Below, one piece after another: positions 8,885 through 39,140 of a DNA stretch of 39,456 nucleotides. Origin of the DNA: a virus. A program made the position numbers and the translations under genes. The stretch is from IMG/VR virus record IMGVR_UViG_3300025162_000098, positions 1 through 39,456 of that record; one strand, 5' to 3'. Below the pieces are notes generated by a model, which was not told where the DNA came from, searched no databases, and worked only from the letters and a program-made list of their open reading frames with translations. Positions within the stretch are counted from its first letter, which is position 1. Each line of letters starts with the position of its first letter.

Positions 8885-9512
8885 TGGAAAAATTTATATA
8901 GGTCAAACTACTAATTGGAAGAAGAGGTTAGGATATTATAATAGATTAGAATGTAAAGGTCAAGTAAAATTATATAATTCATTAGTTAAATATAAATCTG
9001 AAAATCATATATTTGAATTTATAGAGGAATGTTCGAGTGAATTATTAAATGAACGAGAAATATATTGGGGTGATTTTTACGATGTATTGGGTGAGAATGG
9101 ATTAAATCTGAAAGAGTTAGGTATAGGTGGAAAATGGAATGATGAAATGAAAGCTAAAATGAAAGAAAGATGCAATACTCCTGAACATAAAGCTTTCATA
9201 TCTAATATCCATAAAGGTAAAATAACTTCTTCAGAAATTAGAGCTAAGATGAGTGAAACTCATTTATCAATGAATAAAACTCAACCAGAAGAATTAAAAA
9301 TAAAAAGAGGCTTATATAAAAAGCATTCTCCAGAACATATAGAAAGATTTATTAAATCGGCTTCTAAACCTATTATACATCTTCCATCAGAAGTGATATA
9401 TGAAAGTATAACTCAAGCCGCTAAAATATTAGGAATAGATCATTCTAATATAATAAGAATATTAAAAGGAAGACAAAATAATTATAAAGGAACAACATTT
9501 AAATATATTTAA
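8832..9512 (+). CDS. GIY-YIG homing endonuclease with NUMOD-type DNA-binding tail (copy A)
   Basis: 226 residues from the chosen ATG. The GIY-YIG core is at residues 8-25 (IIGIYKITSPSGKIYIGQ), with downstream WKKRLGYYNR and an EIYWGDFYD helix containing the expected acidic residue. The C-terminal half has NUMOD3-like helices (KMKERCNTPEHKAFISN, SEIRAKMSETH) and a NUMOD1-type helix-turn-helix (ESITQAAKILGIDHSNIIRIL). It is a free-standing mobile gene that nicks target DNA to copy itself. It sits between two structural genes. An in-frame ATG at 8787 exists, but 8832 matches the spacing (97 bases from the leader-ORF ATG) in the two sister copies. Confidence 0.85.
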   Translation: MEKTKNVIIGIYKITSPSGKIYIGQTTNWKKRLGYYNRLECKGQVKLYNSLVKYKSENHIFEFIEECSSELLNEREIYWGDFYDVLGENGLNLKELGIGGKWNDEMKAKMKERCNTPEHKAFISNIHKGKITSSEIRAKMSETHLSMNKTQPEELKIKRGLYKKHSPEHIERFIKSASKPIIHLPSEVIYESITQAAKILGIDHSNIIRILKGRQNNYKGTTFKYI

Positions 9513-12446: not shown

Positions 12447-12572
12447 ATGATTAATTTTATAAAATATTTAATATATAAAATATATTACATTTTATATTTA
12501 AAAAATTCATATGGTTATGGTAAATATTCTAAATCTATATATACAAAACTTTTAAAAAATATAAAAAAATGA
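12447..12572 (+). CDS. Possible 41-residue basic, aromatic small protein
   Basis: An ATG ORF encodes MINFIKYLIYKIYYILYLKN followed by a basic Tyr/Lys-rich tail. It ends in TGA overlapping the next ATG by 4 bases, the coupling pattern used elsewhere in this window. Residues 3-19 are hydrophobic enough for a short membrane segment. The DNA is extremely AT-rich, so a chance ORF is quite possible. No homologue is recognised. Confidence 0.35.
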   Translation: MINFIKYLIYKIYYILYLKNSYGYGKYSKSIYTKLLKNIKK

Positions 12573-13492
12573 ATGACACATTTGATTTAAAAGCCTATCT
12601 AGGTAGTAAACGCCTATTAACTGAAAATTACGAACCTGTTTCTGAAGAAGAATCAATAAATGATAATTACTATAAAGAATTAGACCCAAAAGCGGCTATT
12701 GATAAAGCAACCATTGATTTCCAACACGCTAATAAAACTGGTAATGATGGGTTAGCTAATAAAATTGCTGGAAATTTAAAAATCTATCTAGATTATAAAC
12801 AATATGATTGGAAAAAAGATCCAAAAGCATTAGAAATATTGGATGGATTTTTAGATGAAAATATTAATGGAAATCAATCCTCAAACATAATCCGTCAATT
12901 AAAACCTGGACAAGAATATACATGGTTTATGGGTGCTTCTCCTATGAAATGTACTTATATAGGGAAAGATGAAAAAGAACCTACATATACATTTAAGTTA
13001 GGTAATTCGATTCATAAATTATCTATTAAAGATGTAAAAGACTTCATTGAACCATTAAGTACATATGAAGAATATGCCGCTGAAAGTAATATTGATGAAG
13101 CTAATAAATTTACTTTAGGTAAACATGGTATTAAGAAGCGCCTTAAAACCGCAGTCAGACAAGCTTTAACTGAAAAGAAGAAAATCAAAAAAGATTTAGA
13201 TCCTGAAGATATCGATATCGAAAGTGCATTTACAAAAGAACCTGAAGTAGAAGAAAATCCTGAACCACAACCAGACGAACAAGCAGCAGCTCCAGTAGAT
13301 GTTAATCCAATCGATACTTCAAATACTGAACAAAAACCAGGATTCTCTAAAGAAGAACAAGAAATTCAGAATTCTCTAAAGGTAGCTTATGATCACGCTA
13401 CATCAATTGGTGATCAAAAATTAGCGACTCAAATAGGAAATTCACTGAAATATTTTGTAAAAATGCATGTTGTATCACAGGATCTTAGCTAG
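12569..13492 (+). CDS. Unknown head-region protein with N-terminal LTE tag
   Basis: 307 residues. The first 20 (MNDTFDLKAYLGSKRLLTEN) form an amphipathic segment ending in LTE. The same segment, with matching DNA, recurs at 18689. A small beta domain follows (RQLKPGQEYTWFMGASPMKC to KLGNSIHKLSIKDVKDFIEP, about 110-158). Then comes a basic helix (KHGIKKRLKTAVRQALTEKK, about 185-205), an acidic Pro/Glu linker (about 214-250) and a C-terminal helical part with 'KVAYDHATSIGDQKLATQIGN' that echoes an earlier stretch at about 45-67. No enzyme is recognised. The N-terminal tag suggests packaging into the prohead and cleavage by the gp21-like protease, which is inference. Confidence 0.6.
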   Translation: MNDTFDLKAYLGSKRLLTENYEPVSEEESINDNYYKELDPKAAIDKATIDFQHANKTGNDGLANKIAGNLKIYLDYKQYDWKKDPKALEILDGFLDENINGNQSSNIIRQLKPGQEYTWFMGASPMKCTYIGKDEKEPTYTFKLGNSIHKLSIKDVKDFIEPLSTYEEYAAESNIDEANKFTLGKHGIKKRLKTAVRQALTEKKKIKKDLDPEDIDIESAFTKEPEVEENPEPQPDEQAAAPVDVNPIDTSNTEQKPGFSKEEQEIQNSLKVAYDHATSIGDQKLATQIGNSLKYFVKMHVVSQDLS

Positions 13493-14803: not shown

Positions 14804-15898
14804 ATGGAAGTTAAAACAATATTATCGGAGATTACCGAGCGTATTATTACTGAACAACAATTATTGGACATTTATAGTATATCTTTGAACGACTGGGAGG
14901 TAGAGAAGAAGGTTATTAATACGTGGGAGGTTGGTAGCAAAACAGCGTCTGGTGAAATAGCAACTACGCCATTATTTCAGGTGAAAGTTTGGTTGAAGAG
15001 TAAAAAAGAAGTAAAAGAGTTAGAAGATATTAGAAAGGACTTCATAGAAGATATAAAGAAATTATCACCAAAAGTAGAGTTAAAGAAATATGAACCTGCT
15101 ATTGATAAACCAGCACATATGCTTCAAATCAATATTTTTGATTTACATTTTGGTAAGTTGAGTTGGGCTCCAGAGTGCGGTGCAGACTTCAATATAGGAA
15201 TAGCAGCTGAATTGTTTAATAGTGCAATAGATACATTTATAGAAGATACTAAAGATTTTCATATTGATAAAATATTATTACCTTTAGGTAATGACTTTTT
15301 CAACAGCGGAGTCGCATACCCGTACAATAGTACAACTAAAGGGACGGCACAAACCGAGTCTAATGTTTGGAAAGAAACATTTACAAAAGGTCGTCAATTG
15401 CTTGTAGAAAATATTAAAAAATTATCTAAAATAGCGCCTGTCGATGTTTTAATAATCTTAAGCAACCATGATATGGAGCGTGTATATTACTTGGGAGATA
15501 GTTTAGAAGCATATTTTCATAATGACAGTAATGTGAATGTAAATAATGGACCTACAACTAGAAAATACTATAAATATCATAATATATTGTTGGGATTTGT
15601 CCATGGTGACAAAGAGAGTATTAATAATCTTCCACTTATAATGTGTCAGGAACAAGCGGTAAATTGGGGATTGACCAAATATCGTGAATTCCATTTGGGT
15701 CACATTCATCACAGTAAATCAACTGTTTATAATCCTATTCGTGAATTACAAGGTGTAATGATTAGACATATGCCGTCCCTTAGTGCAAGCGATGCATGGC
15801 ACGTTGAGTCGGGTTACGTGGGGTCAAAAAGATCTGCTGAAGCCTATTTGTGGAGCCAAGACAAAGGTTTAAAATCAATTCTCTACTACACTTTGTAA
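14804..15898 (+). CDS. Calcineurin-like metallophosphoesterase
   Basis: 364 residues. The dimetal phosphoesterase motifs are present in order: D113-x-H115 (IFDLHFGKLS), G162-N163-D164 (LPLGNDFFNS), N221-H222-D223 (LSNHDMERV), H267 (GFVHGDK) and G299-H300-x-H302 (LGHIHHS). This matches catalytically complete enzymes of the Mre11/Lambda-phosphatase superfamily. The substrate (DNA end, nucleotide or phosphoprotein) cannot be told. The first 100 residues are an extra domain; they begin KTILSEITERIITEQQLLDI, perhaps a helix-turn-helix or a head-targeting tag containing LSE and ITE. It is the last gene before a homing endonuclease insertion. Confidence 0.85.
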   Translation: MEVKTILSEITERIITEQQLLDIYSISLNDWEVEKKVINTWEVGSKTASGEIATTPLFQVKVWLKSKKEVKELEDIRKDFIEDIKKLSPKVELKKYEPAIDKPAHMLQINIFDLHFGKLSWAPECGADFNIGIAAELFNSAIDTFIEDTKDFHIDKILLPLGNDFFNSGVAYPYNSTTKGTAQTESNVWKETFTKGRQLLVENIKKLSKIAPVDVLIILSNHDMERVYYLGDSLEAYFHNDSNVNVNNGPTTRKYYKYHNILLGFVHGDKESINNLPLIMCQEQAVNWGLTKYREFHLGHIHHSKSTVYNPIRELQGVMIRHMPSLSASDAWHVESGYVGSKRSAEAYLWSQDKGLKSILYYTL

Positions 15899-16005: not shown

Positions 16006-16037
16006 CTATGTTTTTCTTTAATCCTCCTCCTTTTAAT

Positions 16038-16907
16038 ATGAACGAAAATAAAAAATGTACCAGATGTAGTGAAGTTAAATCTTTAGAAGAATTTAGTAAT
16101 AGGAAATATAATAGAGATGGGAAATCTGTTTATTGTAAAGAATGTGTTAAAAAAGAAAGAGAAGAACAAAAACAATATAAAATAATATATAATTATGTAA
16201 TTCCTAAAGATACAAAAATATGCAATAAATGTGGTGAAACTAAATCTTTAGATGAATTCCATAATCTTAAAAGAAGTAAAGATGGTAAACAAGGTTATTG
16301 TAAAGAATGTAGTAAAATATATATTGAAAATAATAAAGAACATTTAAAAGAATATAGTAAAAAATATTCTATAGATAATAAAGAACATTACCAAGAATAT
16401 CAAAAACAATATAATAAAGAACACAAAGAAGAAAGATTAGAATATCAAAAAGAATATGATAAAACTGAAGGAAGAAAAGTATATCATCAAAAACATTTCC
16501 AAAAACATAAAAGAGCAAGAGTAACCCATCAAAACGAATATAATAAGGAAAAACGAAAAACAGATCCATTATATAAATTATATGATTGTATTCAAACTAG
16601 AATATATGGTTCTTTAAAGAAAAAGGGTATAGTAAAATCCAAACGAACCGAAGAAATGTTAGGTTGTACTATTGAAGAATTTAAATTATACATAGAAAGT
16701 AAATTTGAGAGCTGGATGAGTTGGGATAAATATGGTCTATACAATGGTGAATTTAATTATGGTTTCGACCTTGACCACATTATACCCGTCTCAAGCGCAC
16801 AAACAGAAGCAGACCTCCTCACCCTAAACCACTACTCAAATTTCCAACCGCTTTGTAGTAAAATAAACCGCGACATCAAAAAAGCAAGACTCGATTATGA
16901 ATCCTGA
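16038..16907 (+). CDS. HNH homing endonuclease with two zinc ribbons
   Basis: 289 residues from the ATG following the CCTCCTCC stretch; an in-frame ATG at 16008 would add ten odd residues (MFFFNPPPFN). Two zinc-ribbon modules come first: CTRCSEVKSLEEF...YCKEC and CNKCGETKSLDEFHN...YCKEC. A tandem linker of about 12-residue 'Y...NKEH..EY' units follows. The C-terminal HNH core is FDLDHIIPVSSAQTEADLLT, then LNHYSNFQPLCSKINRDIK. It is a free-standing mobile nuclease. Its last 150 bases are nearly the same DNA as the HNH gene at 35760 and are richer in C than their surroundings. The stop overlaps the next gene by 11 bases. Confidence 0.85.
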   Translation: MNENKKCTRCSEVKSLEEFSNRKYNRDGKSVYCKECVKKEREEQKQYKIIYNYVIPKDTKICNKCGETKSLDEFHNLKRSKDGKQGYCKECSKIYIENNKEHLKEYSKKYSIDNKEHYQEYQKQYNKEHKEERLEYQKEYDKTEGRKVYHQKHFQKHKRARVTHQNEYNKEKRKTDPLYKLYDCIQTRIYGSLKKKGIVKSKRTEEMLGCTIEEFKLYIESKFESWMSWDKYGLYNGEFNYGFDLDHIIPVSSAQTEADLLTLNHYSNFQPLCSKINRDIKKARLDYES

Positions 16908-19804: not shown

Positions 19805-20773
19805 ATGACTTACATTTATATTTTAGAAAGAAACGAAATCCCATTTTATGTTGGTAAAGCAAAAGATTTTATTAGGAGAAAAGGCAAACATAAAGAATTA
19901 TATGGTAAAGATATAATTATGACTATAATTGATAGTTGTGGGGATGAATATGAATGTTGGAAACCATTAGAAAAATTTTGGATATCATATATTAAATTTT
20001 TAGGATTTGAATTAACTAATAAAAATAATGGTGGAGGAGGTCCTTCAAAATATACTGAAGAATCTAAAATAAAAATGAGAAAACCACGAAAAGAAGGAAC
20101 TGGTGCTAAAATATCTAAAACTTTATTAAAAAACAATCATTCAAAATATTACACAGATGATGTAAAGCAAAAAATGAGTAATGGAATGACCGGTTTAAAA
20201 AGGGGACCTATTTCTGAAGAAACAAGAATAAAAATTAAAGAAGGATTAAAAGATCATTCAAAACATTATACTCCTGAAATTTGTCAAAAAATGAGAATAG
20301 CATTAAAAGGAAGTCATGGTGGACCACTTTCTGAAGAACATATAATTAAGATGAAAGAAGGTAGACGAAAAAAATCAAAAAGAGTATTTCAATATGATTT
20401 GAATGGAAAATTTATTAAAGAGTGGAGTGGGAAAGGAGAAATATCAGATTGGGTTAAAGAAAATGAAGAAAGAGCTAGAACCCAAAATGTAATATCTCAA
20501 ATAAATGATTGTTGTATAGGTAAAATAATAAGTTGTTGGGGCTATATATGGAGATTTAAAGATGAATTTATTCCTGTAATTCCTAAATATTATCCTATTG
20601 AACAATATTTAGATGATAAATTTATAAATGAATTTTATAATGAAATAGAAGCTGAAAATTATATTATAGAAAATAAATTAAGTAATAATAAAGATAAACC
20701 AAGAGATTTATTAAAATTGAGTATAAAAAAAGATCGAAAATTTTGTGGGTTTAAATGGAAATATAAAAAATAA
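19805..20773 (+). CDS. GIY-YIG homing endonuclease, divergent type with NUMOD3 repeats
   Basis: 322 residues. The GIY-YIG core is at the very N-terminus in the variant form (TYIYILERNEIPFYVGKAKD, residues 2-21), with FIRRKGKH following and a helix (CWKPLEKFWISYIKFLG) holding the expected acidic residue. Next come about five NUMOD3-like units (for example SKYTEESKIKMRKPRKEGTG and LSEEHIIKMKEGRRKKSK). A NUMOD1-like module (VFQYDLNGKFIKEWSGKGEI) and a basic tail finish it. It lacks the upstream MGRI leader ORF that the other three GIY-YIG genes have. It ends 6 bases before the FAD-dehydrogenase gene. Confidence 0.85.
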   Translation: MTYIYILERNEIPFYVGKAKDFIRRKGKHKELYGKDIIMTIIDSCGDEYECWKPLEKFWISYIKFLGFELTNKNNGGGGPSKYTEESKIKMRKPRKEGTGAKISKTLLKNNHSKYYTDDVKQKMSNGMTGLKRGPISEETRIKIKEGLKDHSKHYTPEICQKMRIALKGSHGGPLSEEHIIKMKEGRRKKSKRVFQYDLNGKFIKEWSGKGEISDWVKENEERARTQNVISQINDCCIGKIISCWGYIWRFKDEFIPVIPKYYPIEQYLDDKFINEFYNEIEAENYIIENKLSNNKDKPRDLLKLSIKKDRKFCGFKWKYKK

Positions 20774-22442: not shown

Positions 22443-22592
22443 ATGGGAAGAATTAAACAACATTTAACTAAGGAAGCCAAATTGGCTGCTAAAAATAAAG
22501 CTTCTCACAAATATTATTGGAATAATAAACAAAAATGTGATGAAGAAGCAAAAGAACGCTATTATAGGAATTTACAAAATAACCAGTCCTAG
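22443..22592 (+). CDS. 49-residue MGRI leader ORF overlapping a GIY-YIG gene (copy B)
   Basis: The ORF encodes MGRIKQHLTKEAKLAAKNKA, then SHKYYWNNKQKCDEEAKERY and YRNLQNNQS, exactly 49 residues as in copies A and C. It ends in TCC TAG inside the GIY-YIG core of the overlapping gene. Its ATG is 97 bases from that gene's ATG. Because the -10-like core ends only 2 bases upstream, it may be translated from a leaderless message or not be translated at all. Confidence 0.6.
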   Translation: MGRIKQHLTKEAKLAAKNKASHKYYWNNKQKCDEEAKERYYRNLQNNQS

Positions 22593-23301
22593 TGGTAAAA
22601 TTTATATAGGACAATCCGTTAATATAGATGAAAGGAAGAAAGTTTATAAACGTATTAACTCATTAGTTGGACAGCCTAAAATATATCGTTCAATAAATAA
22701 GTATGGTTTCGAAAATCATACTCATGAGATAATTGAAATATGTTCTATAGAACAACTGGACGAACGCGAAACTTTTTGGAAAAAATATTATTTAGAACAA
22801 GTCAATAACGATTGGCAACAAGTATTATTTTGTGAATTATACGATAATGGTGGAGGTCCTAAATCTGAAAAGACAAAACTTAAAATGAGAAAACCTAGAT
22901 CGGAAGAAGCCAAAAAGAATATGAAATATCCTAAATCGGATAAATTCAAAGAAATAGTAAGGTTAGCTCATATAGGTAAACCTAAATTAGCTGCTCGAGG
23001 CATACTTAGATCAGATGAATCAAAATTAAAGATGAGTTTATCTCGAATGGGTCAATCAATATCTGAAGAAACCAAAATAAAAATGAGTTTAGCTAAGAAA
23101 GGGAAACCTAATTTGAATAAAGGAATACCCAAATCCGAAGAATTTAAGAAACACATGAGAAAACCATGTGTGATTAAAGGAGTAGAATATATTTCTAGAT
23201 GGGAAGCTGCAGAAATATTAGGAGTGACAGCAAATGATGTTAATCATTGGATACTTAATCCAAAACCTAAATATGATGATTGTTATTGGTTACACAAATA
23301 G
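22540..23301 (+). CDS. GIY-YIG homing endonuclease (copy B)
   Basis: 253 residues from the ATG; a GTG directly upstream is also possible. The core is AIIGIYKITSPSGKIYIGQS (residues 6-25), then NIDERKKVYKRINS and LDERETFWKKYYLEQ. Several NUMOD3-like units follow (GGGPKSEKTKLKMRKPRSEE, SDESKLKMSLSRMGQSISEE, SEETKIKMSLAKKGKPNLNK). A C-terminal helix-turn-helix (SRWEAAEILGVTANDVNHWI) should read the target site. It is close in sequence to the 8832 copy across the catalytic core. The next gene, at 23325, follows after 23 bases. Confidence 0.85.
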   Translation: MKKQKNAIIGIYKITSPSGKIYIGQSVNIDERKKVYKRINSLVGQPKIYRSINKYGFENHTHEIIEICSIEQLDERETFWKKYYLEQVNNDWQQVLFCELYDNGGGPKSEKTKLKMRKPRSEEAKKNMKYPKSDKFKEIVRLAHIGKPKLAARGILRSDESKLKMSLSRMGQSISEETKIKMSLAKKGKPNLNKGIPKSEEFKKHMRKPCVIKGVEYISRWEAAEILGVTANDVNHWILNPKPKYDDCYWLHK

Positions 23302-23324: not shown

Positions 23325-23534
23325 ATGGACAAACAACGTTTACAGGAGTTAGCAGGCATAACTCCAACCTCACAAAAATTAGCATCGCTTATCTCTTCCT
23401 CAATTGCATCTATTGATCCTAATATGTCATATAAAGATTTAGCAGGAGCAGTCGCTATCGTATTGAAAAATGAATATGGAACTCATAATTATGAAAAATT
23501 TATAGGAACATTGAAATCTAATTTAGAAGAATGA
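23325..23534 (+). CDS. Small head-region-type protein with LQELAGI motif
   Basis: 69 residues: MDKQRLQELAGITPTSQKLA, then a small helical domain (DPNMSYKDLAGAVAIVLKNE, YGTHNYEKFIGTLKSNLEE). The '(R)(L/M)Q.LAGI' motif near the N-terminus recurs in the acetyltransferase at 33499 (RMQVLAGIISE). I recall it from many small proteins of marine T4-like phages. It is a candidate structural or head-packaged protein. A weak hairpin (ATGGAAA...TTTCCAT, 23534-23556) follows it. Confidence 0.55.
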   Translation: MDKQRLQELAGITPTSQKLASLISSSIASIDPNMSYKDLAGAVAIVLKNEYGTHNYEKFIGTLKSNLEE

Positions 23535-26240: not shown

Positions 26241-26390
26241 ATGGGGAGAATAACTAAATACAAAACAATAGAAGAGAAGAAACATGCTCAGCTATTGGCT
26301 TCCAAAAAATATTATTGGAATAATAAAGAACAAGAAGATGGCAAAGCAAAGGCTAGGTACCATAGGAATTTACAAAACAGTAAATCCTAA
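26241..26390 (+). CDS. 49-residue MGRI leader ORF overlapping a GIY-YIG gene (copy C)
   Basis: The ORF encodes MGRITKYKTIEEKKHAQLLA, then SKKYYWNNKEQEDGKAKARY and HRNLQNSKS, again 49 residues, ending in TCC TAA. The start-to-start distance to the overlapping GIY-YIG gene is 97 bases, as in copies A and B. Here the leader between the -10-like core and the ATG is 13 bases, so translation of this copy from its own message is the easiest to imagine. Confidence 0.6.
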   Translation: MGRITKYKTIEEKKHAQLLASKKYYWNNKEQEDGKAKARYHRNLQNSKS

Positions 26391-27048
26391 AGGAAAAATT
26401 TATGTGGGTCAATCTATAAATATAGAACGTAGAGAAGAAGAGTATAGAGGATCAAGATGTAAAGGACAAAAAAAATTGTATTATTCTATTATAAAATATG
26501 GTTGGGACAATCATACTCATGAAATAATAGAAGAATGTTCTATAGACCAATTAGACGAACGCGAAATATATTGGGGAATGTTTTATGAAGTATTAGGTAA
26601 GAATGGATTAAATTGCATGTTGGGGAGTGGTAAAGGATATGTGAGTGATGATACCTTAGAAAATATAAGAAAATCCATGAAAAATAGAGTGTATTTTCAT
26701 TCTCCTGAAACTCTAATTAAGATGAGGAAGCCTAAACCTGAAGGATTTGGTGAAAAAGTAAGTAAAGCTAATCTGGGGAGACATGCTGGTATGAAAGGAA
26801 AATCTCAAAAATTTAAAGGAAGAATATCTCCAAATAAAGGGAATTCATATAGTCATTCTCAAGAATCAAATGAAAAGAAATATAAACCTATTTTACAATT
26901 TGATTTACAATATAATTTTATTAAAGAATGGCCCAGTATAAAACAAGCTAAAGAAGATTTAAGTATAGTAAATATATCAGTAGCATTAACGGGAGATAAT
27001 AAAACAGCTGGTGGATTTATTTGGAAATATAAAAATGAACAAAAATGA
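26338..27048 (+). CDS. GIY-YIG homing endonuclease (copy C)
   Basis: 236 residues from the chosen ATG; the frame is open to 26284, but that region belongs to the leader ORF. The core is TIGIYKTVNPKGKIYVGQSI (residues 7-26), then ERREEEYRGSRCKGQKKLYY and DEREIYWGMFYEVLGKNGLN. NUMOD3-like pieces (SPETLIKMRKPKPEGFGEKV) and a NUMOD1-type module (ILQFDLQYNFIKEWPSIKQA, then a helix-turn-helix) complete it. It ends with a 4-base ATGA overlap onto the terminase gene, so terminase may be translated by coupling from this message. Confidence 0.85.
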   Translation: MAKQRLGTIGIYKTVNPKGKIYVGQSINIERREEEYRGSRCKGQKKLYYSIIKYGWDNHTHEIIEECSIDQLDEREIYWGMFYEVLGKNGLNCMLGSGKGYVSDDTLENIRKSMKNRVYFHSPETLIKMRKPKPEGFGEKVSKANLGRHAGMKGKSQKFKGRISPNKGNSYSHSQESNEKKYKPILQFDLQYNFIKEWPSIKQAKEDLSIVNISVALTGDNKTAGGFIWKYKNEQK

Positions 27049-28726: not shown

Positions 28727-31700
28727 ATGGCTGAAAAAGACGTTTTTTCAAGATTAAAAAGATTATTCTCTTCAAATATTATGGTACGTAATATTGGGGG
28801 TGATCAGATTAAGGTTATAGATATAAATACAATCCAAACAGGTGGAGAAGTTAAAACTAACTCTATACAAGATAGATTTAATAGAGTTTATACTACCAAC
28901 CCATCATCTCTATATGGATCACAATTCAATCAGAATTATAAATTTTTAAGACCACAACTATATTCTGAATATGATTCGATGGATATGGATGCCATTATAG
29001 CATCCTCCCTAGATATTATGGCAGATGAATCTACTTTGAAAAGCGATATGGGAGAAATACTTCAAATACGTAGTTCAAATGATGATGTTCAACAGCTTTT
29101 ATATAATTTGTTTTATGATGTTTTAAATATAGACTTTAATTTATGGTCATGGATTCGCCAAATGTGTAAGTATGGTGATTTTTTCCTTAAATTAGAAATA
29201 GCAGAAAAATATGGTGTATATAATGTAATTCCATATACTGCATATCATATGGAGCGTCAAGAAGCTTATGATTCTAAAGATCCATCGGCTGTTCGTTTTA
29301 AATATTATCCTGATGGAGTAATGGCTTCAAGTACTGGGATGTATGCTTCTCCAAACACTAATGTAACGGATGTTAATGGAATATATTTCGATAATTATGA
29401 AATGGCTCATTTCCGTTTATTATCAGATGTAAATTACTTACCTTACGGCCGCGCAATAATTGAACCAGCACGCAAGTTATTTAAGCAATATACTATGCTT
29501 GAAGATGCAATGTTGATTCATCGTATATCAAGAGCCCCAGAAAAACGTATATTTTATATTAATGTAGGAGCTATTCCTCCAAATGAAGTAGATGCATTTA
29601 TGCAGAAGACTATTTCAAATATGAAACGTACTCCATACATTAATAAAGAAACGGGTGATTATAATTTGAAATTTAACATGCAAAACATGCTAGAAGATTT
29701 TTATATTCCTATTCGTGGAAATGATATTGCTACTAAAATAGAAACAGCCAAAGGTTTAGAATATACTGGAATAGAAGATGTAACTTATTTAAGAGATAAA
29801 TTATTTGCTGCATTAAAAGTCCCACGCGCATTTATGGGGTACACTGCTGACTTAAATGGAAAATGTATAGATCCATTAACAAAGATTCCTTTACTTGATG
29901 GAAGAATATTAACTGTTCAAGAAATTATTGATGAATATAATAATGGAATAAAAAATTATGTATATTCTTTAAATACTGAAACAAATAATATAGTTCCGGG
30001 GGAAATAGAATGGGCTGGTTTTACTAGAATGAATACACAAACTATTAAAGTTTGGTTAGATAATGGAGAATTTATTAGATGTACACCTGATCATAAATTT
30101 TTAACAAGAGATGGAGAATGGAAAGAAGCACAAGATTTGCAAGAAAATGAATCACTTATGCCTCTTTATCTTAGAAAATCCACAGAAAAGAAAATAAATG
30201 GATACGTTGAAGTATATAATCCTAGTGATGGGAAATATAAATTTGTACATAGATTAGTAGCTGAACATTATGGTTTGAAAGAAGATATAAAAGATGTAGT
30301 TATTCATCATGATAATTGTAATAAATTGAATAACAATCCAGAGAATTTAAATTGTTCTATGAATTTCTGGGAACATAGACAATGGCATATAGATCATACT
30401 AATTTATGTCATACTAATGAAGCAAATGCCAAACGAAAAGCAACTTTGATAAGATTGATGGAAGAGGATGGTGATTATGCCAAAATGAGAAGAAGAGTAT
30501 GCAAAGAAAATTCTGTTGCCTTAGTTGAGTGGATTAAAGAAAACGGAGCATCTAGAAAAGGATTTGTTAAAAATCCTATAAGAATTTGTAAAGGATGTGG
30601 GATGGAATTTGACGTAACTAATATAGAACCTTCTAAAAGAAATAATATTTATTGTTCTGATAAATGCCGTTCCGAAAATTGGGTTTCTCCTTTCAAAAAT
30701 ATATCCATTGAAAATTTAATAGAGGCAGCTAGTGATAGTAAAAATTTTAAAGAATTAATGGGTAAATTAAATATAGGATGTCATGCTGTGTTGAGGAAAT
30801 TATTAAAACATTATAAATTTGAAACTCCAAATTTTATATTAGAATATATGCCTGCTGCTCATTCCAATATATATTTTATGAATCAATTTCCAGAAACTAA
30901 TCAATTTTATATAGATAATTTCCACCCAGAACACAATCAGTGGAAGGAGAAATATTCATATAAAAATCATAAAGTATCTAGAATAGAATGGTGTGATGAT
31001 CTTATTGATACATGTGATATTACAGTAAAAGAATTTCATAATTTTGGTACTGATGCTGGAGTTATTATTCATAACAGTACATTAGCCGCCCAGGACATAC
31101 GTTTTGCTCGTACTATAGAACGTATACAACGCATTATAGTTTCTGAACTTAATCGTATTGCTTTAGTTCATTTATATGCTCAAGGTTATAGAGATGAAAT
31201 GCTAACCAATTTTGAATTATCGATGACTACTCCTTCCATCATATATGATCAGGAACGCATTGAATTAATGAAATCGAAAGCAGAATTGACTACTACTCTT
31301 CTTGAACAAAATTTATTACCATCAGATTGGATTTACCATAATATATATCATTTAAGTGAAGATCAATTTGATGAAATGCGTGATTTAGTAAGAGAAGATA
31401 CTAAACGTAAATTCCGTCTTACACAAATAGAAAACGAAGGTAATGATCCTCAAGAATCTGGTAAATCATATGGTACACCACACGATCTAGCATCTCTTTA
31501 TGGTAAAGGTCGAATGTATACTGATGCAGGTAATGTACCTGAGGGTTATAATACTGATGCTGACTTAGGTCGTCCACAAGAAACTACATTATCAAGAAAT
31601 AAACAAGAAGATAATTTTGGCAAAGATAGACTAGGGGTTCAAGGTATGAAAGATAAGGATAAAAATGATTCTGATTCTATAAGAACTCAATACAAAGGTG

Positions 31701-31849
31701 GTGGTCCGTTAGCTCTTGAAGGATCTAAAAAAGCACTTATTCAAAACCAAAAAGTACTATCTAAAATTGATAAATTGTATGGAAAGAAGATGATATTCGA
31801 ACAAGATAACAACATTCCATTCATGGATGAAGAGCAATTACTAGATTAA
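28727..31849 (+). CDS. 20: Portal protein, T4 gp20-like, interrupted by an intein
   Basis: 1040 residues as encoded; about 636 after removal of the 404-residue intein (T4 gp20 has 524). Extein landmarks: YKFLRPQLYSEYDSMDMDAI, the portal crown and wing region (FRLLSDVNYLPYGRAIIEPA and DAMLIHRISRAPEKRIFYIN), and DKLFAALKVPRAFMGYTADL just before the intein. After it come STLAAQDIRFARTIERIQRI and an acidic C-terminus. The dodecameric portal forms the head vertex that docks terminase and later the neck. The intein must be spliced out for function, because it cuts the highly conserved 'GK/STLA..DIRFA' segment. Confidence 0.93.
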   Translation: MAEKDVFSRLKRLFSSNIMVRNIGGDQIKVIDINTIQTGGEVKTNSIQDRFNRVYTTNPSSLYGSQFNQNYKFLRPQLYSEYDSMDMDAIIASSLDIMADESTLKSDMGEILQIRSSNDDVQQLLYNLFYDVLNIDFNLWSWIRQMCKYGDFFLKLEIAEKYGVYNVIPYTAYHMERQEAYDSKDPSAVRFKYYPDGVMASSTGMYASPNTNVTDVNGIYFDNYEMAHFRLLSDVNYLPYGRAIIEPARKLFKQYTMLEDAMLIHRISRAPEKRIFYINVGAIPPNEVDAFMQKTISNMKRTPYINKETGDYNLKFNMQNMLEDFYIPIRGNDIATKIETAKGLEYTGIEDVTYLRDKLFAALKVPRAFMGYTADLNGKCIDPLTKIPLLDGRILTVQEIIDEYNNGIKNYVYSLNTETNNIVPGEIEWAGFTRMNTQTIKVWLDNGEFIRCTPDHKFLTRDGEWKEAQDLQENESLMPLYLRKSTEKKINGYVEVYNPSDGKYKFVHRLVAEHYGLKEDIKDVVIHHDNCNKLNNNPENLNCSMNFWEHRQWHIDHTNLCHTNEANAKRKATLIRLMEEDGDYAKMRRRVCKENSVALVEWIKENGASRKGFVKNPIRICKGCGMEFDVTNIEPSKRNNIYCSDKCRSENWVSPFKNISIENLIEAASDSKNFKELMGKLNIGCHAVLRKLLKHYKFETPNFILEYMPAAHSNIYFMNQFPETNQFYIDNFHPEHNQWKEKYSYKNHKVSRIEWCDDLIDTCDITVKEFHNFGTDAGVIIHNSTLAAQDIRFARTIERIQRIIVSELNRIALVHLYAQGYRDEMLTNFELSMTTPSIIYDQERIELMKSKAELTTTLLEQNLLPSDWIYHNIYHLSEDQFDEMRDLVREDTKRKFRLTQIENEGNDPQESGKSYGTPHDLASLYGKGRMYTDAGNVPEGYNTDADLGRPQETTLSRNKQEDNFGKDRLGVQGMKDKDKNDSDSIRTQYKGGGPLALEGSKKALIQNQKVLSKIDKLYGKKMIFEQDNNIPFMDEEQLLD
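29864..31075 (+). mobile_element. Intein with HNH homing endonuclease in the portal gene
   Basis: 404 residues (portal residues 380-783). Splicing blocks: Cys1 with block A (CIDPLTKIPLLDGRILTVQE), block B (CTPDHKFLTRDGEWKEAQDL) and block F/G (DTCDITVKEFHNFGTDAGVI, then terminal HN). The +1 extein residue is Ser. The endonuclease part has HRLVAEHYGLKEDIKDVVIH HDNCNKLNNNPENL, an HNH fold with LNCSMNFWEHRQWH. A C-x2-C...C-x3-C zinc finger (CKGCGMEF, then YCSDKCRSENW) and a helix-turn-helix-like segment (NFKELMGKLNIGCHAVLRKL) follow. All splice residues are present, so self-splicing is expected. The DNA boundary is exact at the Lys-Cys and Asn-Ser junctions. Confidence 0.93.
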
Positions 31850-32753: not shown

Positions 32754-33264
32754 ATATAAGCTCAAAGAAATAGAAGTAGGAACAACTGATATAAACAATG
32801 GTATCAAAACCAAAATTATATCTAAAGATCCTGAGACTAAAACTACTGAATGGGAAGTTAAATATAATGTTGATTTAGGTAGTCCTATTAAAAAATTTAA
32901 TGAAGCTCTTGAATCATTACGAGAAATAAGTAAACAACATAGAGATGATTCATTTTTAAGAGATATTATTGAAAGCGTTAAATCGATTAAAAACGATTAT
33001 CGCGCTCACGTTCGCACAGAATATCCAGCCGATTATGATGAACTAAAACGTAAGAGTGCTTATATGAAAGAAGATATTGAAGGATTAGATGAAGAAGATG
33101 GTGCTGGTGGGTATTCGACACCTTTCGCATTTAGCGCTAAGAAAAATTCTCCTAATCCTGCTACTAAATATATGGTCAAAACATTTAAATATAAACTAGT
33201 TCCGAAGAAGATTAAAGGATCTGGTTTAGAAGTTAAGCAATTGTGGAAAGAAAATGGCATATAA
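32746..33264 (+). CDS. Unknown head-region protein, YKYKLKE start (1)
   Basis: 172 residues from the ATG; a GTG at 32722 would add eight residues inside the upstream gene. It begins MYKYKLKEIEVGTTDINNGI. The body is charged (FNEALESLREISKQHRDDSF, with DYDELKRKSAYMKEDIEGLD). It ends in a small basic domain (TKYMVKTFKYKLVPKKIKGS, GLEVKQLW). The next gene begins with almost the same seven residues (AYKYKLKE). The overlaps of 8 bases upstream and 11 bases downstream show tight coupling. No family is recognised; it probably belongs to the head morphogenesis set. Confidence 0.55.
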   Translation: MYKYKLKEIEVGTTDINNGIKTKIISKDPETKTTEWEVKYNVDLGSPIKKFNEALESLREISKQHRDDSFLRDIIESVKSIKNDYRAHVRTEYPADYDELKRKSAYMKEDIEGLDEEDGAGGYSTPFAFSAKKNSPNPATKYMVKTFKYKLVPKKIKGSGLEVKQLWKENGI

Positions 33265-33502
33265 ATATAAACTCAAAGAAACAAATTCAGATGCTGATCA
33301 ATTTCAACAACAACGTTTAGCGTCATTTGATGGGATAGAAGCAAAACTAGATACACTTAAAAAATATGTTGTTAGAGCTAAATTAGCAACAGATAAATTT
33401 TATAGAGCTAACCCGGACTCATACGAGGTAGTTTATTCAACTGATTTAGCAAACGATTATTTAAAAGACTTATTCACATTGTTTAAACCAGACGAAGAAT
33501 GA
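33254..33502 (+). CDS. Unknown small head-region protein, YKYKLKE start (2)
   Basis: 82 residues: MAYKYKLKETNSDADQFQQQ, then two predicted helices (GIEAKLDTLKKYVVRAKLAT, DLANDYLKDLFTLFKPDEE). The N-terminus repeats the start of the upstream gene in protein and DNA. It starts inside the previous gene and overlaps the next by 4 bases. Similar in size to T4 gp67/gp68-type prohead core proteins, but I see no sequence reason to equate them. Confidence 0.55.
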   Translation: MAYKYKLKETNSDADQFQQQRLASFDGIEAKLDTLKKYVVRAKLATDKFYRANPDSYEVVYSTDLANDYLKDLFTLFKPDEE

Positions 33503-33954
33503 AATCCTTAATTACAGAGGCTGAAAAACACCGTATGCAAGTATTGGCTGGAATAATTTCTGAAGGTAAAGTAGATGATTCAAAATCTGAAAAAAGATTT
33601 GAAGTTGATAAAAAGAGTGGTAAATTTAAATTATTTTTAGGAAATACTTTAGTAACTGAGTGTGGATTCAATGTTAAACCACCAGACAAATGGTTTGATA
33701 AAAAATATTTGATTCTTCATGATATGAAAACTGTTAAGAAATATCAAAGAAAAGGATTTGCAAAATTTATATTAAAACAAATATTTAATTATGTAAAAGA
33801 TGATCTTAAACTCAATATTATTTCATTGATTGTTTATAAAGATAATGAACCAGCAACAAAGTTATATTTAAAAAGTGGATTTGAGAAATATAATAATTAT
33901 GATGATTTTAATGATGAAGATAACTCATTCATGACCTTAATAAAAAAATTATAA
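33499..33954 (+). CDS. GNAT acetyltransferase with N-terminal ITE/ISE tag
   Basis: 151 residues. The C-terminal 90 residues are GNAT-like: LILHDMKTVKKYQRKGFAKF ILKQI, where QRKGFA (83-88) is the acetyl-CoA pyrophosphate loop, then LNIISLIVYKDNEPATKLYL and KSGFEKY, the standard 'N..A...Y.k.GF' motif. The first 22 residues (MKSLITEAEKHRMQVLAGII SE) are not part of the fold. They hold ITE|A and ISE|G sites of the kind cut by T4-type prohead proteases and the 'RMQ.LAGI' motif shared with 23325. This suggests an enzyme that is packaged in the head and trimmed. The acetyl acceptor is unknown. Confidence 0.75.
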   Translation: MKSLITEAEKHRMQVLAGIISEGKVDDSKSEKRFEVDKKSGKFKLFLGNTLVTECGFNVKPPDKWFDKKYLILHDMKTVKKYQRKGFAKFILKQIFNYVKDDLKLNIISLIVYKDNEPATKLYLKSGFEKYNNYDDFNDEDNSFMTLIKKL

Positions 33955-33966: not shown

Positions 33967-35151
33967 ATGAAACTACCAAGAACTTTACAAGAAAAATATG
34001 ACGCGGCTCAAAACGGAACAGGCGCTAAAGATGTATTCCTAAAAGAAGCAAAACAATTATATTCGAGTTTAATTCCAAACGCTGCTACTTTTGATCAAAC
34101 AGTTAAAATACTCAAAAATAAAAGTGTATTGAACGAAAATTATGTCGATCTTAAACCAATTTCTGTGTATGAAGGTCGTACTCAAGAACCTTGGGAGGAG
34201 AAATATGCATCGTTTTTGAAAGAACAAGAAGATGCCAAAGCTGAAACAACTAAAATTTCCAAATACGCAGAAGATACCCAGAAGAAAGGATACGATAATT
34301 CAGATGTAAAAAATCTCGATAATCAAATCGGTCAAGAAGTATTGAATGGTATAGCATTTGAAGCACGTGAAAATCCTGACAAAACATTAGATGAAATACG
34401 AGCTATAGTATCAAAAAATCTTGCTAAAGATCAATTATACTATGTTAAAAACGCTATGTTTGGAGAAAAGGGTGTAGGTATATCAGACGAAGTTCCAGGT
34501 ATGAAAGCATCTAAAACGGATCAAATGACTACAGTGAAAATGAAGTCAATAAACGAATCTAAAGCATCCAAACTCGACCAACGTCTCAAAGATATCCATA
34601 AAGCTGGTGATATTATAACATTAGAAGCTAAAATGGAAGCTATTGATGAAGAAATCAATGCTAAAAATGAACGTATCAATATGATTGGAGAAAACGAAGA
34701 TTTAGCTGAACTAGTTAATCCAATCAAACTTCGTGAAATGAAAAAAGAAATCAAAAATCTTGAACGCGAAAAAGCTAAACTACAAAAAGTATACGAAAAA
34801 ATGACTGGACAAAAGAAAGCTGAAGTCATTGATGAACCACAAGAAGTTGAAGAAGATGTTGCTCCTGAAATGGATGATGATAGTGTTAGTGATGATGAAC
34901 AATTGAATGAAAATATTGAAGAATCAACTCCCGAATATACTTTTGATGAACTAATCCACTTGATTGATATTAGTGATCCTAATAACCCTGACAAAGAGCA
35001 ACAAGAAGATGCTGAAAATAAATTGAGAGAATTAGGCTTCTACAATGAAGATGGCGAGATCAGAGAAGAAAATTTCAATAAGTCATTTAAAACAAGTGAT
35101 GGAAAAACATTAACTGATTTGGATAAATATTTCGATGAACATTACATGTAA
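33967..35151 (+). CDS. Unknown head-region protein with central coiled coil
   Basis: 394 residues, strongly charged and mostly helical. The N-terminus is KLPRTLQEKYDAAQNGTGAK. Residues about 205-280 (AKMEAIDEEINAKNERINMI and MKKEIKNLEREKAKLQKVYE) form a coiled coil, followed by an acidic stretch (about 285-315). A small C-terminal domain (YTFDELIHLIDISDPNNPDK and LRELGFYNEDGEIREENFNK) ends it. It sits immediately before the protease, the place of scaffold or core proteins in T4-like maps. It may be a core component. The sequence FEARENPDKTLDEIRAIVSK is the most domain-like part of the N-terminal half. No homologue is named. Confidence 0.55.
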   Translation: MKLPRTLQEKYDAAQNGTGAKDVFLKEAKQLYSSLIPNAATFDQTVKILKNKSVLNENYVDLKPISVYEGRTQEPWEEKYASFLKEQEDAKAETTKISKYAEDTQKKGYDNSDVKNLDNQIGQEVLNGIAFEARENPDKTLDEIRAIVSKNLAKDQLYYVKNAMFGEKGVGISDEVPGMKASKTDQMTTVKMKSINESKASKLDQRLKDIHKAGDIITLEAKMEAIDEEINAKNERINMIGENEDLAELVNPIKLREMKKEIKNLEREKAKLQKVYEKMTGQKKAEVIDEPQEVEEDVAPEMDDDSVSDDEQLNENIEESTPEYTFDELIHLIDISDPNNPDKEQQEDAENKLRELGFYNEDGEIREENFNKSFKTSDGKTLTDLDKYFDEHYM

Positions 35152-35163: not shown

Positions 35164-35757
35164 ATGCTACTAGTAGAAACCCAAAATTTTAAATGTTCTC
35201 CTATACAATTACTAGAAGGTATTAAATCTCCTGCTGGTAATCCAATAGTAGAAGGTATATTAACTACTGTTGAATTAAAAAACGGTAATGGTAGATATTA
35301 TCCTCGTAAGTTGTGGGAAGACGAATTAGAAAAGTATAGCGAGTTTGTGAATGAGAACCGTGCAATGGGTGAATTAGATCACAGCGATGAACAAGTGGTC
35401 AATCTTAAAAATGTATCTCATGTTATTAGAAAAATATGGTGGGATGGTGATAACATAATGGGTCGTATTGAAATATTACCTACACCAGCTGGAAATATAT
35501 TAAGATCATTGATTGAAAATAATGTAACTATAGGTGTATCATCTCGTGGTGTGGGAGAACTGGAACAAAAGGGTGGAGTAATGGAAGTTAGTAGCTATAG
35601 TCTTATTTGTTGGGACGCTGTATCAAATCCATCAAATCCAGGTTCATTCCCTAAACTCGTAAACGAATCCTTAATTAGTCCTAAATATAATTATTCTCAA
35701 GTTAATAATATAATTAGAGAAATTCTTTGCTCTAAAGGAAGCTGTCCTATTTTTTAA
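35164..35757 (+). CDS. 21: Prohead protease, T4 gp21-like (S80 family)
   Basis: 197 residues; T4 gp21 has 212. The catalytic His is probably His73 in MGELDHSDE. The Ser is 126 or 127 in IGVSSRGVG, and Asp151 in LICWDAVSNPSNPGSF is the third candidate. VEGILTTVELKNGNGRYYPR is the usual N-terminal block. It matures the head by cutting scaffold, capsid and internal proteins after (L/I)-x-E. The N-terminus contains LLEG, a possible self-cleavage site. The last codons (AAGCTGTCCTATTTTTTAA) are duplicated at the end of the HNH gene that follows after 2 bases, so the original gene may have had a slightly different C-terminus. Confidence 0.9.
   Translation: MLLVETQNFKCSPIQLLEGIKSPAGNPIVEGILTTVELKNGNGRYYPRKLWEDELEKYSEFVNENRAMGELDHSDEQVVNLKNVSHVIRKIWWDGDNIMGRIEILPTPAGNILRSLIENNVTIGVSSRGVGELEQKGGVMEVSSYSLICWDAVSNPSNPGSFPKLVNESLISPKYNYSQVNNIIREILCSKGSCPIF
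35739..35757 (+). repeat. Left 19-base direct repeat at protease/HNH junction
   Basis: AAGCTGTCCTATTTTTTAA ends the protease gene. The partner at 36353-36371, AAGCTATCCTATATTTTAA, ends the HNH gene; 17 of 19 bases agree and both end in the stop codon. Confidence 0.7.
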
Positions 35758-35759: not shown

Positions 35760-36371
35760 ATGTGTGAAACAAAGAAATGTACTAAGTGTGGTGAAATTAA
35801 ATCTTTAGATGAATTTTATAATAATAAAAACAACTGTAAAACATGTTATAGAAAAAATCAAAAAGAATATAACCTTACCACAAAAGAAAATCAAAAAGAA
35901 TACCATAAAGAATATTATATTAATAACAAAGAAAATGTCAAAGAATATAATCTTATTAATAAAGAAAAAAGGAAAGAACTTTATAGAGAATATAATAAAA
36001 AAAGACGTCAAACTGACCCAATATTTAAGTTAAAGAATAATATCGCAGTAAGTATAGTTCATTCTATTAAAGTAAAAGGATTTCAAAAGAATAAACGAAC
36101 AGAAAAAATCCTTGGTTGCTCAATGGAATTTTTCAAAGCATATCTTGAATCACAATTTCTTCCTTGGATGTCGTGGGATAACTACGGTTTATACAACGGA
36201 GAATTTAATTACGGTTTCGACCTTGACCATATTATCCCTATATCAAGCGCACAAATAGAAGCAGACCTCCTCACCCTAAACCACTATAGTAATTTCCAGC
36301 CATTATGTTCTAAAATAAACCGCGAAATTAAAAGAGATAATCTTAATTATATAAGCTATCCTATATTTTAA
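35760..36371 (+). CDS. HNH homing endonuclease with zinc ribbon
   Basis: 203 residues. One zinc ribbon (KCTKCGEIKSLDEF, then NCKTCYRKN) is followed by a tandem 'EY..NKEN.KEY' linker and a C-terminal HNH core, FDLDHIIPISSAQIEADLLT with LNHYSNFQPLCSKINREIK. It is a shorter sister of the 16038 gene with one ribbon missing and an almost identical core, including 30 identical bases in a row (36257-36286 with 16805-16834). It starts 2 bases after the protease stop with no promoter motif of its own, so it must be co-expressed with the protease. Its final codons (SYPIF) imitate the protease's end (SCPIF). Confidence 0.85.
   Translation: MCETKKCTKCGEIKSLDEFYNNKNNCKTCYRKNQKEYNLTTKENQKEYHKEYYINNKENVKEYNLINKEKRKELYREYNKKRRQTDPIFKLKNNIAVSIVHSIKVKGFQKNKRTEKILGCSMEFFKAYLESQFLPWMSWDNYGLYNGEFNYGFDLDHIIPISSAQIEADLLTLNHYSNFQPLCSKINREIKRDNLNYISYPIF
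36353..36371 (+). repeat. Right 19-base direct repeat at end of HNH gene
   Basis: Partner of the repeat at 35739-35757, with two mismatches. It would be the original 3' end of the protease gene if the endonuclease arrived between the copies. Confidence 0.7.
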
Positions 36372-36570: not shown

Positions 36571-37503
36571 ATGATAAAACGAGACATTCTGGCTGAAGCC
36601 ATAGCTGAAGCTAAAGTTGTTAAAGAAACTGCCATCGAAAATGCTAAAGCAGCATTAACCGAATCATTTGCCCCTCACTTGAAATCTATGCTATCTGCTA
36701 AATTACAAGAAATGGAAACAGAAGATTTAGAAGAAGAAAATTTCATTCCAGAAGAAGCAGTAAACGAAAATGAACAAGTGGATGAATTAGACGAACTATT
36801 AAAAGAAATCGATTCTGAAAACGAATTAGACGAAACTAAAAAAGAAGATGAAGCTGAAGAAGAAGTTCAAGAAGCTGACCCAGAAAAAGACGCAGAATCT
36901 ACCGAAGAAGATGAAGAACTGGATATAGAAGACATGTCTGAAGAAGACCTTAAATCATTTATTGAAGATGTAATTAATGACATGATCGAAACTGGCGAAT
37001 TAGAACCAGGTGAAGGACATGAATCAGAAGAAGAAAATCCAGAAGGTGAAGAAATCGACATCGAAAAAATCGAAGGCGAAGAACAACCAGAAGAAGTAGA
37101 TTTAGACGAAATGTTAAAAATTGGTGAAGAACTTGAAGACGAATCTCTATCAGACGAACTCGACGAAGCATACCAAACCATCGAAACATTGAGAACTCAA
37201 ATATCTGAAGTTAAAGTTTTAAACGCAAAACTTCTTTACTCAAACAAAATTTTCCAATCAAAAACATTAACAGAAGGTAAAAAATTGCAAGTACTGCATG
37301 CCTTCGAAAAAGCAACAACGATTAAAGAAGCTAAAGCCACTTATGAAATTTTGAAAGAAAATCTTGACACAAAAACAATTTCAAAACCTCAATTTAGAGG
37401 AGCAGCTTCAAAAACAATTACCCCTATTAAAGAATCCAAACAGCCTATTGTTGAAGTAGAAAACCAATACGCAAGATGGAAAACACTAGCGGGATTAGAT
37501 TAA
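36571..37503 (+). CDS. 22: Prohead scaffold/core protein, T4 gp22-like
   Basis: 310 residues; T4 gp22 has 269. It begins MIKRDILAEAIAEAKVVKET, containing LAE|A and IAE|A, typical T4 protease sites. The middle (about 50-200) is extremely acidic and rich in Glu, as in gp22-like cores. The C-terminus (EAYQTIETLRTQISEVKVLN, AKLLYSNKIFQSKTLTEGKK and a helix to RWKTLAGLD) matches the pattern of marine gp22-like proteins, and carries another LTE|G site. It forms the transient core inside the capsid shell and is degraded by the gp21-like protease. Position between protease and capsid is canonical. Confidence 0.88.
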   Translation: MIKRDILAEAIAEAKVVKETAIENAKAALTESFAPHLKSMLSAKLQEMETEDLEEENFIPEEAVNENEQVDELDELLKEIDSENELDETKKEDEAEEEVQEADPEKDAESTEEDEELDIEDMSEEDLKSFIEDVINDMIETGELEPGEGHESEEENPEGEEIDIEKIEGEEQPEEVDLDEMLKIGEELEDESLSDELDEAYQTIETLRTQISEVKVLNAKLLYSNKIFQSKTLTEGKKLQVLHAFEKATTIKEAKATYEILKENLDTKTISKPQFRGAASKTITPIKESKQPIVEVENQYARWKTLAGLD

Positions 37504-37538: not shown

Positions 37539-39140
37539 ATGAGTTTACAAACTTTATTAGAAAGTGCTAATCCATATCAGTCAGTACAGACTGCAGCACA
37601 AAAATTATCTGCTAAATGGAGCCCAACTGGTTTACTAGAAGGACTTGAAAAAGAGCAGAAAAATAATATGGCAATGATTCTTGAAAACCAAGCTAAACAG
37701 TTGGTAGTAGAAGCATCTCAAACAGGTGGTGGTATTGGTTCAGCAGGAACTTTTACAGCAGGACAAGGTGAACAATGGGCTGGAGTTGCCCTTCCATTAG
37801 TTCGTAAAGTATTTGGTCAAATCGCATCGAAAGAATTCGTAAGTGTTCAACCGATGAATTTACCTTCAGGTCTAGTATTTTATCTTGATTTCCAATATGG
37901 AAATACAAAAGCTCCTTTTACTGCAGGTGATTCTGTATACGGTGCTACTGGTGGTAACTTACCTTTCGGAAACACAAATACAGGTGGTCTTTACGGTGCA
38001 GGTCGTTTTGCCTATACTACTAACAATACTTCTTCTTATGCAACAGCAACTACTGCTTCTGCTACATGGGCTGATTTGAATTTTGATTCTAACTACTCTG
38101 CATCTGCAGCTGCTGGTCAATATATTAAAGTAACTGTTCCTACTGCTTCTCTTCCTAACTTGGATTTGAACGGTTTACGCGCGTTTGCTTTATCAAGCAG
38201 CATTCAAGTTCCTGTATTCACTAGTTTGAATGGAACTAACGTACAATTTATTGTATCTGGTAGTGTTGCTCCTGCACAAGCAAGTTCTCAATTAGTTACT
38301 TACCAAATGCAACCAACTGATCAATATCGTGGTGATTTTGAAGATGGAAATACTGGATTAAACGGTACTAACACCGCTATTACAATTCCTGAGATCAACA
38401 TCAAGATGAAATCTAGTTCAATCACTGCGAAAACCAAGAAATTGAAAGCAGTATGGACTCCAGAGTTTGCCCAAGATATCAACGCTTACCATAGTTTAGA
38501 TGCTGAAGCAGAAATAACATCAATTATCTCTGAATATATTTCTCTTGAAGTAGATTTAGAAGTATTGGATATGTTAATTCAAAATGCATCTGCTGGAACA
38601 GAGTATTGGTCAGCTGTAAATAACCAAGGCATTAACGCAGCCGGAACAGCATTCGATGTTGCTTTAGGTTTCTATAATACTCAGGGTGGATGGTTCCAAA
38701 CATTGGGAACTAAAATTACTAAATTGAGTAATATTATTCATCAGAAAACCATGCGTGGTGGAGCTAATTTCTTGATCTGTTCTCCTACAGTATCTACTAT
38801 CCTTGAATCAATTCCTGGATTTAGTGCAGACGTGAACGGTGAAACTGAAAAAATGAACTACGCGTTCGGTGTTCAGAAAATTGGATCTATGAACGGTCGT
38901 TATAAAGTATTTAAAAACCCATACATGACTGAAAATCAGATCTTGTTAGGTTATAGAGGTACTCAATTCTTGGAAACGGGCGCAGTATACGCGCCTTATG
39001 TACCCGTAATCATGACCCCTTTAGTCTATGACCCGGACACATTTACTCCAAGAAAAGGTCTCTTGACCCGCTACGCAAAGAAAATGGTTCGTCCAGAGTA
39101 CTATGGCCTGATCAAGGTAGCTGGGTTGAATACATTGTAG
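37539..39140 (+). CDS. 23: Major capsid protein, T4 gp23-like
   Basis: 533 residues; T4 gp23 has 521. Key blocks: an N-terminal propeptide ending near QAKQLVVE|ASQTGGG (about residue 65), aligned with T4's FLTE|AEIGG cut; WAGVALPLVRKVFGQIASKE FVSVQPMN; the segment KTKKLKAVWTPEFAQDINAY HSLDAEAEITSI; then FLICSPTVSTILESIPGF and TRYAKKMVRPEYYGLIKVAG at the end. It forms the hexamers of the HK97-fold shell. GC content is a little higher and codons more regular than in the neighbours, as expected for the most expressed gene. A strong terminator follows. Confidence 0.96.
   Translation: MSLQTLLESANPYQSVQTAAQKLSAKWSPTGLLEGLEKEQKNNMAMILENQAKQLVVEASQTGGGIGSAGTFTAGQGEQWAGVALPLVRKVFGQIASKEFVSVQPMNLPSGLVFYLDFQYGNTKAPFTAGDSVYGATGGNLPFGNTNTGGLYGAGRFAYTTNNTSSYATATTASATWADLNFDSNYSASAAAGQYIKVTVPTASLPNLDLNGLRAFALSSSIQVPVFTSLNGTNVQFIVSGSVAPAQASSQLVTYQMQPTDQYRGDFEDGNTGLNGTNTAITIPEINIKMKSSSITAKTKKLKAVWTPEFAQDINAYHSLDAEAEITSIISEYISLEVDLEVLDMLIQNASAGTEYWSAVNNQGINAAGTAFDVALGFYNTQGGWFQTLGTKITKLSNIIHQKTMRGGANFLICSPTVSTILESIPGFSADVNGETEKMNYAFGVQKIGSMNGRYKVFKNPYMTENQILLGYRGTQFLETGAVYAPYVPVIMTPLVYDPDTFTPRKGLLTRYAKKMVRPEYYGLIKVAGLNTL

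Follow-up and report, generated by a model that had tools for sequence, protein, structure and literature searches.

A leader peptide shared with the prohead scaffold and its probable part in addressing a GNAT acetyltransferase to the head of a T4-like phage

Why would a phage keep a gene for an acetyltransferase among its head genes, behind a leader that looks made to be cut off? The question arises from the IMG/VR record IMGVR_UViG_3300025162_000098, a phage contig of 39,456 bases that was analysed entire and is called the window here. At 33499 to 33954 on its plus strand, an ATG-started gene encodes a 151-residue protein with a GNAT domain, to which an earlier note on this DNA had ascribed a removable-looking head tag. 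That tag is now strongly supported: its peptide recurs at the C-terminus of the scaffold protein and on more than 100 other proteins, with protease-type sites adjoining it. We consider it probable that the tag is a capsid-targeting leader that shares its core with the scaffold and is cut by the prohead protease gp21, and that the acetyltransferase is packaged and injected as an early effector.

The predicted capsid-targeting leader comprises residues 1 to 22 (MKSLITE↓AEKHRMQVLAGIISE↓, arrows marking presumed cuts; 33499 to 33564, plus strand), as delimited by tag comparison and gp21-type sites. It contains ITE7↓A8, the core octapeptide RMQVLAGI at residues 12 to 19 (33532 to 33555, plus strand, by motif search and profile) and ISE22↓G23, all exactly where the earlier note had read them; ITE↓A and ISE↓G are both of the gp21 type, L/I-x-E. 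Is so short a motif significant? A profile of the tag, built from 140 other families with the window left out, was run on the 243 open reading frames (ORFs) of the window. It found the GNAT ORF at E 4e-7, and its sole other match (E 2e-4) was a second tagged protein at 23325 to 23534, plus strand, which begins MDKQRLQELAGI and also carries the motif. In a sample made up of the window and gp21-anchored contigs picked without regard to the tag, 1372 ORFs in all, the motif occurs 14 times, against a mean of 0.01 and a maximum of 1 among residue-shuffled sequences. A chance motif is thus ruled out, by the shuffles as well as by the profile made without the window.

The tag was sought across IMG/VR with a degenerate nucleotide pattern encoding RMQxLAG(hydrophobic)(hydrophobic)xE and with variants of that pattern; all counts of the tag are lower bounds, and cargo families were defined by BLAST after its removal. 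R(M)QxLAGI(I)xE starts at least 222 distinct phage proteins in at least 143 cargo families, with the consensus MxxxxxxxExxRMQxLAGIITE and, by per-family position frequencies, E at −3 (85%), I/L/V at +7 and E at +10 (80%). Among the 143 families listed, the cargo bodies are mutually unrelated and mostly ORFans; [ILVM]xE lies downstream of the tag in 113, upstream in 73 and on both sides in 54, and the octapeptide is encoded by 114 different 24-base strings, which argues for selection on the peptide. In the fetched loci, 11 matches were neither N- nor C-terminal, several of them owing to a missed start codon; two identical matches (L025, L026), whose long frames offer no start codon ahead of the motif, were discarded as chance. 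Searched against INPHARED by short tblastn, the tag matched only the four records of Flavobacterium phage immuto, and the complete genome of immuto 3-5A holds two N-terminal tags as well as the C-terminal scaffold form. In three of the gp21-anchored contigs (L006, L009, L017), a further small gene with the tag lies between gp21 and gp22. Two or three consecutive tagged genes with unrelated bodies, arranged like effector islands, occur at L061:5233-6454 and L081:7483-8371 and in L064 and L079. No paper naming the motif was found within the literature searched, and the acetyltransferase is one cargo among many of an apparently undescribed peptide.

The same octapeptide stands no more than 6 residues from the C-terminus in at least 150 further proteins. 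What are they? Among the matches listed, 141 have 300 or more bases downstream, and in 133 of these a homologue of the major capsid protein gp23 follows within 1.5 kb; we therefore take those 133 to be gp22-type scaffolds. In 133 of 150, again among the matches listed, [ILVM]xE precedes the motif by at most 12 residues, as in KQPIVE↓SNDVFKRMQKLAGII-stop; the scaffold of immuto 3-5A ends IISE↓VSEQVSRWQKLAGIIK-stop and that of Microcystis phage Mel-JY01 ILNE↓SNNVVERMKKLAGIVK. A short tblastn of the scaffold C-terminus against INPHARED gave no match. In the window, the gp22-type scaffold (36571 to 37503, plus strand; assigned by position and similarity to relatives, with no Pfam match) ends PIVE↓VENQYARWKTLAGLD (37474 to 37500), which, aligned by position, we read as a diverged copy of the tag. 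Since the leader peptide is the scaffold's own C-terminus, a common docking site is suggested. The gp23 propeptide regions of the window and its relatives contain LVVE↓A or LVVE↓S-type sites, which is consistent with the specificity of gp21 in these phages. Seven contigs (L039, L041, L057, L049, L249, L340, L373) have an LAG peptide at the C-terminus of a protein without a following gp23; such non-scaffold proteins suggest that the tag may act from either end.

What else travels under this address? A Pfam scan of the first 106 family representatives yielded few matches, namely the GNAT, a WYL_2-like protein and an Acb1 protein (L085:4266-4826), and the further 41 cargo representatives gave nothing convincing. 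The last of the three exceeds the cut-off for the Acb1 anti-CBASS family (PF23474) and conserves both HxT motifs. Its AlphaFold2 model (32 sequences) has a pLDDT of 90, with a mean of 46 for residues 11 to 20, and Foldseek matches it to the phage Acb1-type phosphodiesterases 9q2g (E 3.7e-6) and 7t27, but also to further members of the 2H phosphoesterases, USB1 and LigT among them. An anti-defence enzyme of Acb1 type is thus a plausible further cargo, to judge from sequence and predicted fold, other 2H activities being possible.

Among 42 fetched relatives of this protein, seven (L142-L147 and L158, L142 being the same contig as L085) carry the RMQxLAGI leader, while in most of the others the conserved body is directly preceded by a short leader with hydrophobic-x-E at its end (MIKLLDLLKE, MKTIKDFITE, MKHVKLFEEFMNE). 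The bodies of L158 and L148 are about 80% identical, yet the former begins with RMQxLAGI and the latter with MIKLLDLLKE; L150 has a leader of the form MADDFNLKEYL...LLQE. One Acb1 body is thus joined, according to the phage, to RMQxLAGI, to a leader resembling the capsid-targeting sequence (CTS) of T4 or to a third type, which we read as module exchange. Since nearly all of these phosphoesterases of T4-like phages (L085:4266-4826, L142-L183) have hydrophobic-x-E leaders, it is tempting to regard them as head-packaged anti-CBASS enzymes. Another N-terminal leader, M..(F)(N/D)L(K/R).(F/Y)L.EN.L..., recurs on many unrelated proteins, among them the window product at 12569 to 13492, several proteins of immuto (L138, L140), the Acb1-type protein of L150 and others; it is possibly another capsid-targeting class.

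Is the cargo in the window really an acetyltransferase? Acetyltransf_1 (PF00583) matches the ORF at 33.6 bits against a cut-off of 20.7 (E 5.4e-8), and the FR47 profile is likewise above its cut-off. The Pfam domain occupies residues 48 to 128 (33640 to 33882, plus strand); the acetyl-CoA loop Q/R-x-x-G-x-G/A is intact in the translated sequence as Q83-RK-G86-F-A88 (QRKGFA, residues 83 to 88), and an N..A..LY...GF motif can be read from N116 to GF128. On these motifs we take the product to be a GNAT acetyltransferase with an intact acetyl-CoA motif. The earlier note had put the fold in the last 90 residues; Pfam places the domain at about 48 to 133. Matches in the PDB by sequence are generic GNATs, the best being 2vi7 (E 1e-4). 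Given a cut after ISE22, the mature enzyme would run from residue 23 to 151 (33565 to 33951, plus strand), as the gp21-type site predicts.

The gene does lie in the portal-to-protease head cluster, as had been proposed, yet as an accessory insertion. The order in the window, of the T4 type, is gp17, gp20, four small genes, a 394-residue gene, gp21, an HNH-like ORF, the gp22-type scaffold and gp23; the small genes encode 288, 180 and 82 residues and the GNAT, the last in the window only. The 82- and 394-residue genes are directly adjacent in contig L004, a close relative, and no relative examined has a GNAT at this position, from which we conclude that it was inserted. The gene had also been described as locked in place by overlap. 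This holds upstream, where its start shares four bases (ATGA) with the stop of the 82-residue gene (33254 to 33502, plus strand, conserved in relatives), but not downstream, where 12 bases separate it from the conserved 394-residue head-cluster gene (33967 to 35151, plus strand). The presumed remover of the tag, gp21 (Peptidase_S77 by Pfam; 35164 to 35757, plus strand), is present in the same contig together with the scaffold, and gp23 (by Pfam; 37539 to 39140, plus strand) has a predicted propeptide site LVVE↓A. The portal gene gp20 (28727 to 31849) is interrupted by an intein that includes an HNH endonuclease domain (residues 387-783 by Pfam Intein_splicing); this element is missing from related portals, which are about 630 residues long.

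How, then, would the enzyme reach its target? The tag, its sharing by the scaffold and unrelated proteins, the adjoining protease-type sites, the head-cluster locus and the GNAT match are observed; for docking partner, cleavage, packaging, injection and substrate we infer the following. Residues 1 to 22 would act as a CTS that copies the C-terminal contact of the scaffold, a reading that follows from the T4 and P1 precedents given below and from the LVVE↓A/S sites of gp23. Through the RMQVLAGI core, scaffold and cargo would dock on one common partner as the prohead grows; the likeliest candidates are the major capsid protein, by its inner face, and the core. A gp21 cut after ISE22 would free a 129-residue acetyltransferase inside the head, just as a cut at PIVE↓ would free the scaffold. 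The enzyme would then enter the cell with the DNA and acetylate its target before phage gene expression; most likely the target belongs to a defence system or to the machinery by which the host expresses its genes. Packaging in the head we regard as highly probable and injection as fairly probable, and we lean towards a host or defence target rather than a phage protein. By analogy with T4 Alt and the T4 internal proteins, with the GNAT domains of virion-borne polyvalent proteins and with AcrVA5, injection followed by acetylation of host proteins is plausible.

Several observations weigh against this proposal. The scaffolds of T4, KVP40 and Synechococcus Sf-FR1 have C-termini without the tag peptide (T4 gp22 ends VSVYAKVASRF), which makes the T4 CTS a functional and not a sequence-based precedent; the tag profile likewise matched nothing in the head regions of T4, KVP40 and Synechococcus. 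The window's own scaffold copy is degenerate (RWKTLAGLD) and was missed by the profile at E<=1. Whole-protein relatives of the GNAT were found neither in IMG/VR nor in INPHARED nor in GTDB genomes by the searches used, so that its body offers no comparative support for an activity or a role, and its single-sequence AlphaFold2 model, with a pLDDT of 43, is unusable. Finally, no virion proteomics of any tagged phage was found in the literature; the paper considered as a source for immuto makes no mention of these phages.

Could the enzyme be sent into the prohead and work there during assembly, for instance by acetylating N-termini or proteins of the capsid or core, without being injected? Its location among head genes would suit such a role, and the presence of N-alpha-acetyltransferases among the weak PDB sequence matches makes acetylation of phage proteins conceivable. 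However, the gene is missing from the head clusters of the relatives examined, and of 100 records bearing the tag or gp21, 98 have no GNAT and the other two have untagged ones, as would suit an accessory effector rather than an assembly factor; that Acb1 is a fellow cargo argues for delivery into the cell. We therefore hold an assembly role to be unlikely. It is very unlikely that the leader is some other shared element unconnected with targeting, for instance an N-terminus that nucleates folding or has a regulatory role and that recombination at gene starts has spread. One shared start on many small phage genes could so arise, and clusters of tagged genes exist, but no 5′-end mechanism explains why the scaffold and some few other proteins have the same peptide C-terminally, the codons vary widely, and protease-type sites stand beside the peptide at both its N- and C-terminal locations. 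A purely RNA-level or recombination-only element is ruled out by the codon diversity and the C-terminal copies. About as improbable is that the GNAT plays no part in the virion or in early infection, being a run-of-the-mill auxiliary enzyme to which a widespread leader came by chance: GNAT genes are common, and this one has no relatives found and no predictable substrate, but its leader sits at the exact N-terminus with both flanking sites kept and its acetyl-CoA motif is retained.

Two other features of the window deserve mention. Homing-endonuclease-like ORFs are unusually many among its structural genes (8787-9512, 19805-20773, 22537-23301, 26284-27048, 16008-16907 and 35760-36371); the first is GIY-YIG/NUMOD by Pfam, and the other five were recognized by eye or by a weak match. 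The product of 14804 to 15898 resembles by eye a calcineurin-type phosphoesterase, with no Pfam match at 1e-3, and its leader MEVKTILSEITERIITEQ has gp21-type sites.

What would follow if capsid targeting by a copied scaffold contact holds? Somewhat in favour of the broader case, we suspect that a large group of T4-like aquatic phages uses one eight-residue head address, C-terminal on the scaffold and N-terminal on cargo, that loading is scaffold mimicry, and that more than 100 ORFan families, with an anti-CBASS enzyme and an acetyltransferase among them, are pre-packaged effectors of the first minutes. A large pool of phage ORFans would then become predicted virion-delivered effectors that a motif search can list, and a short address would be at hand for loading proteins into the heads of non-enterobacterial phages. 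It would also suggest that head cargo is chosen by copying the scaffold contact, and both an acetyltransferase and an anti-CBASS enzyme would be present in the cell just as the DNA enters.

We take the leader system to be a variant of the CTS and internal-protein principle in which the peptide is apparently unrelated and seems to be linked to the scaffold. Like the T4 system, it places a short leader with a terminal gp21 site (I/L-x-E) at the N-terminus of unrelated small proteins; unlike it, it has a much larger range of cargo and a core in common with the scaffold C-terminus, where T4 gp22 ends differently. The consensus is presumably also unlike the leader of T4 IPIII. In T4, internal proteins have CTS leaders of 10–19 residues, the first ten residues of IPIII suffice for packaging, and gp21 cuts after L/I-x-E (PMC9026906); these proteins are packaged, trimmed and injected, and IPI–III block GmrSD restriction enzymes (PMC9026906, PMC12373910). 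T4 Alt, a packaged ADP-ribosyltransferase, is alike in being a host-modifying class of enzyme behind a gp21-processed leader in a T4-like phage, but the GNAT is predicted to have an acetyltransferase and not an ART fold, with no sequence relation. Since an Acb1-type anti-CBASS enzyme carries the same tag, the anti-defence internal proteins are the closer parallel. That enzyme agrees with the Acb1 anti-CBASS nuclease in family (PF23474), HxT motifs and fold (9q2g, 7t27) and, given its leader, would arrive with the DNA, unlike known Acb1. In P1, an unrelated phage and system, the N-terminal 30 residues of DarB suffice to bring a reporter into the capsid (PMC9024508), an N-terminal packaging signal as proposed here. 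GNAT domains, for their part, occur in virion-associated polyvalent proteins (PMC5512222), and AcrVA5 is a GNAT anti-CRISPR that inactivates Cas12a by acetylation (PMC9114340). The former are multidomain and the latter is untagged, unlike the tagged GNAT, but, as far as likeness at the Pfam level goes, all are GNAT domains of a kind that phages or mobile elements use early in invasion.
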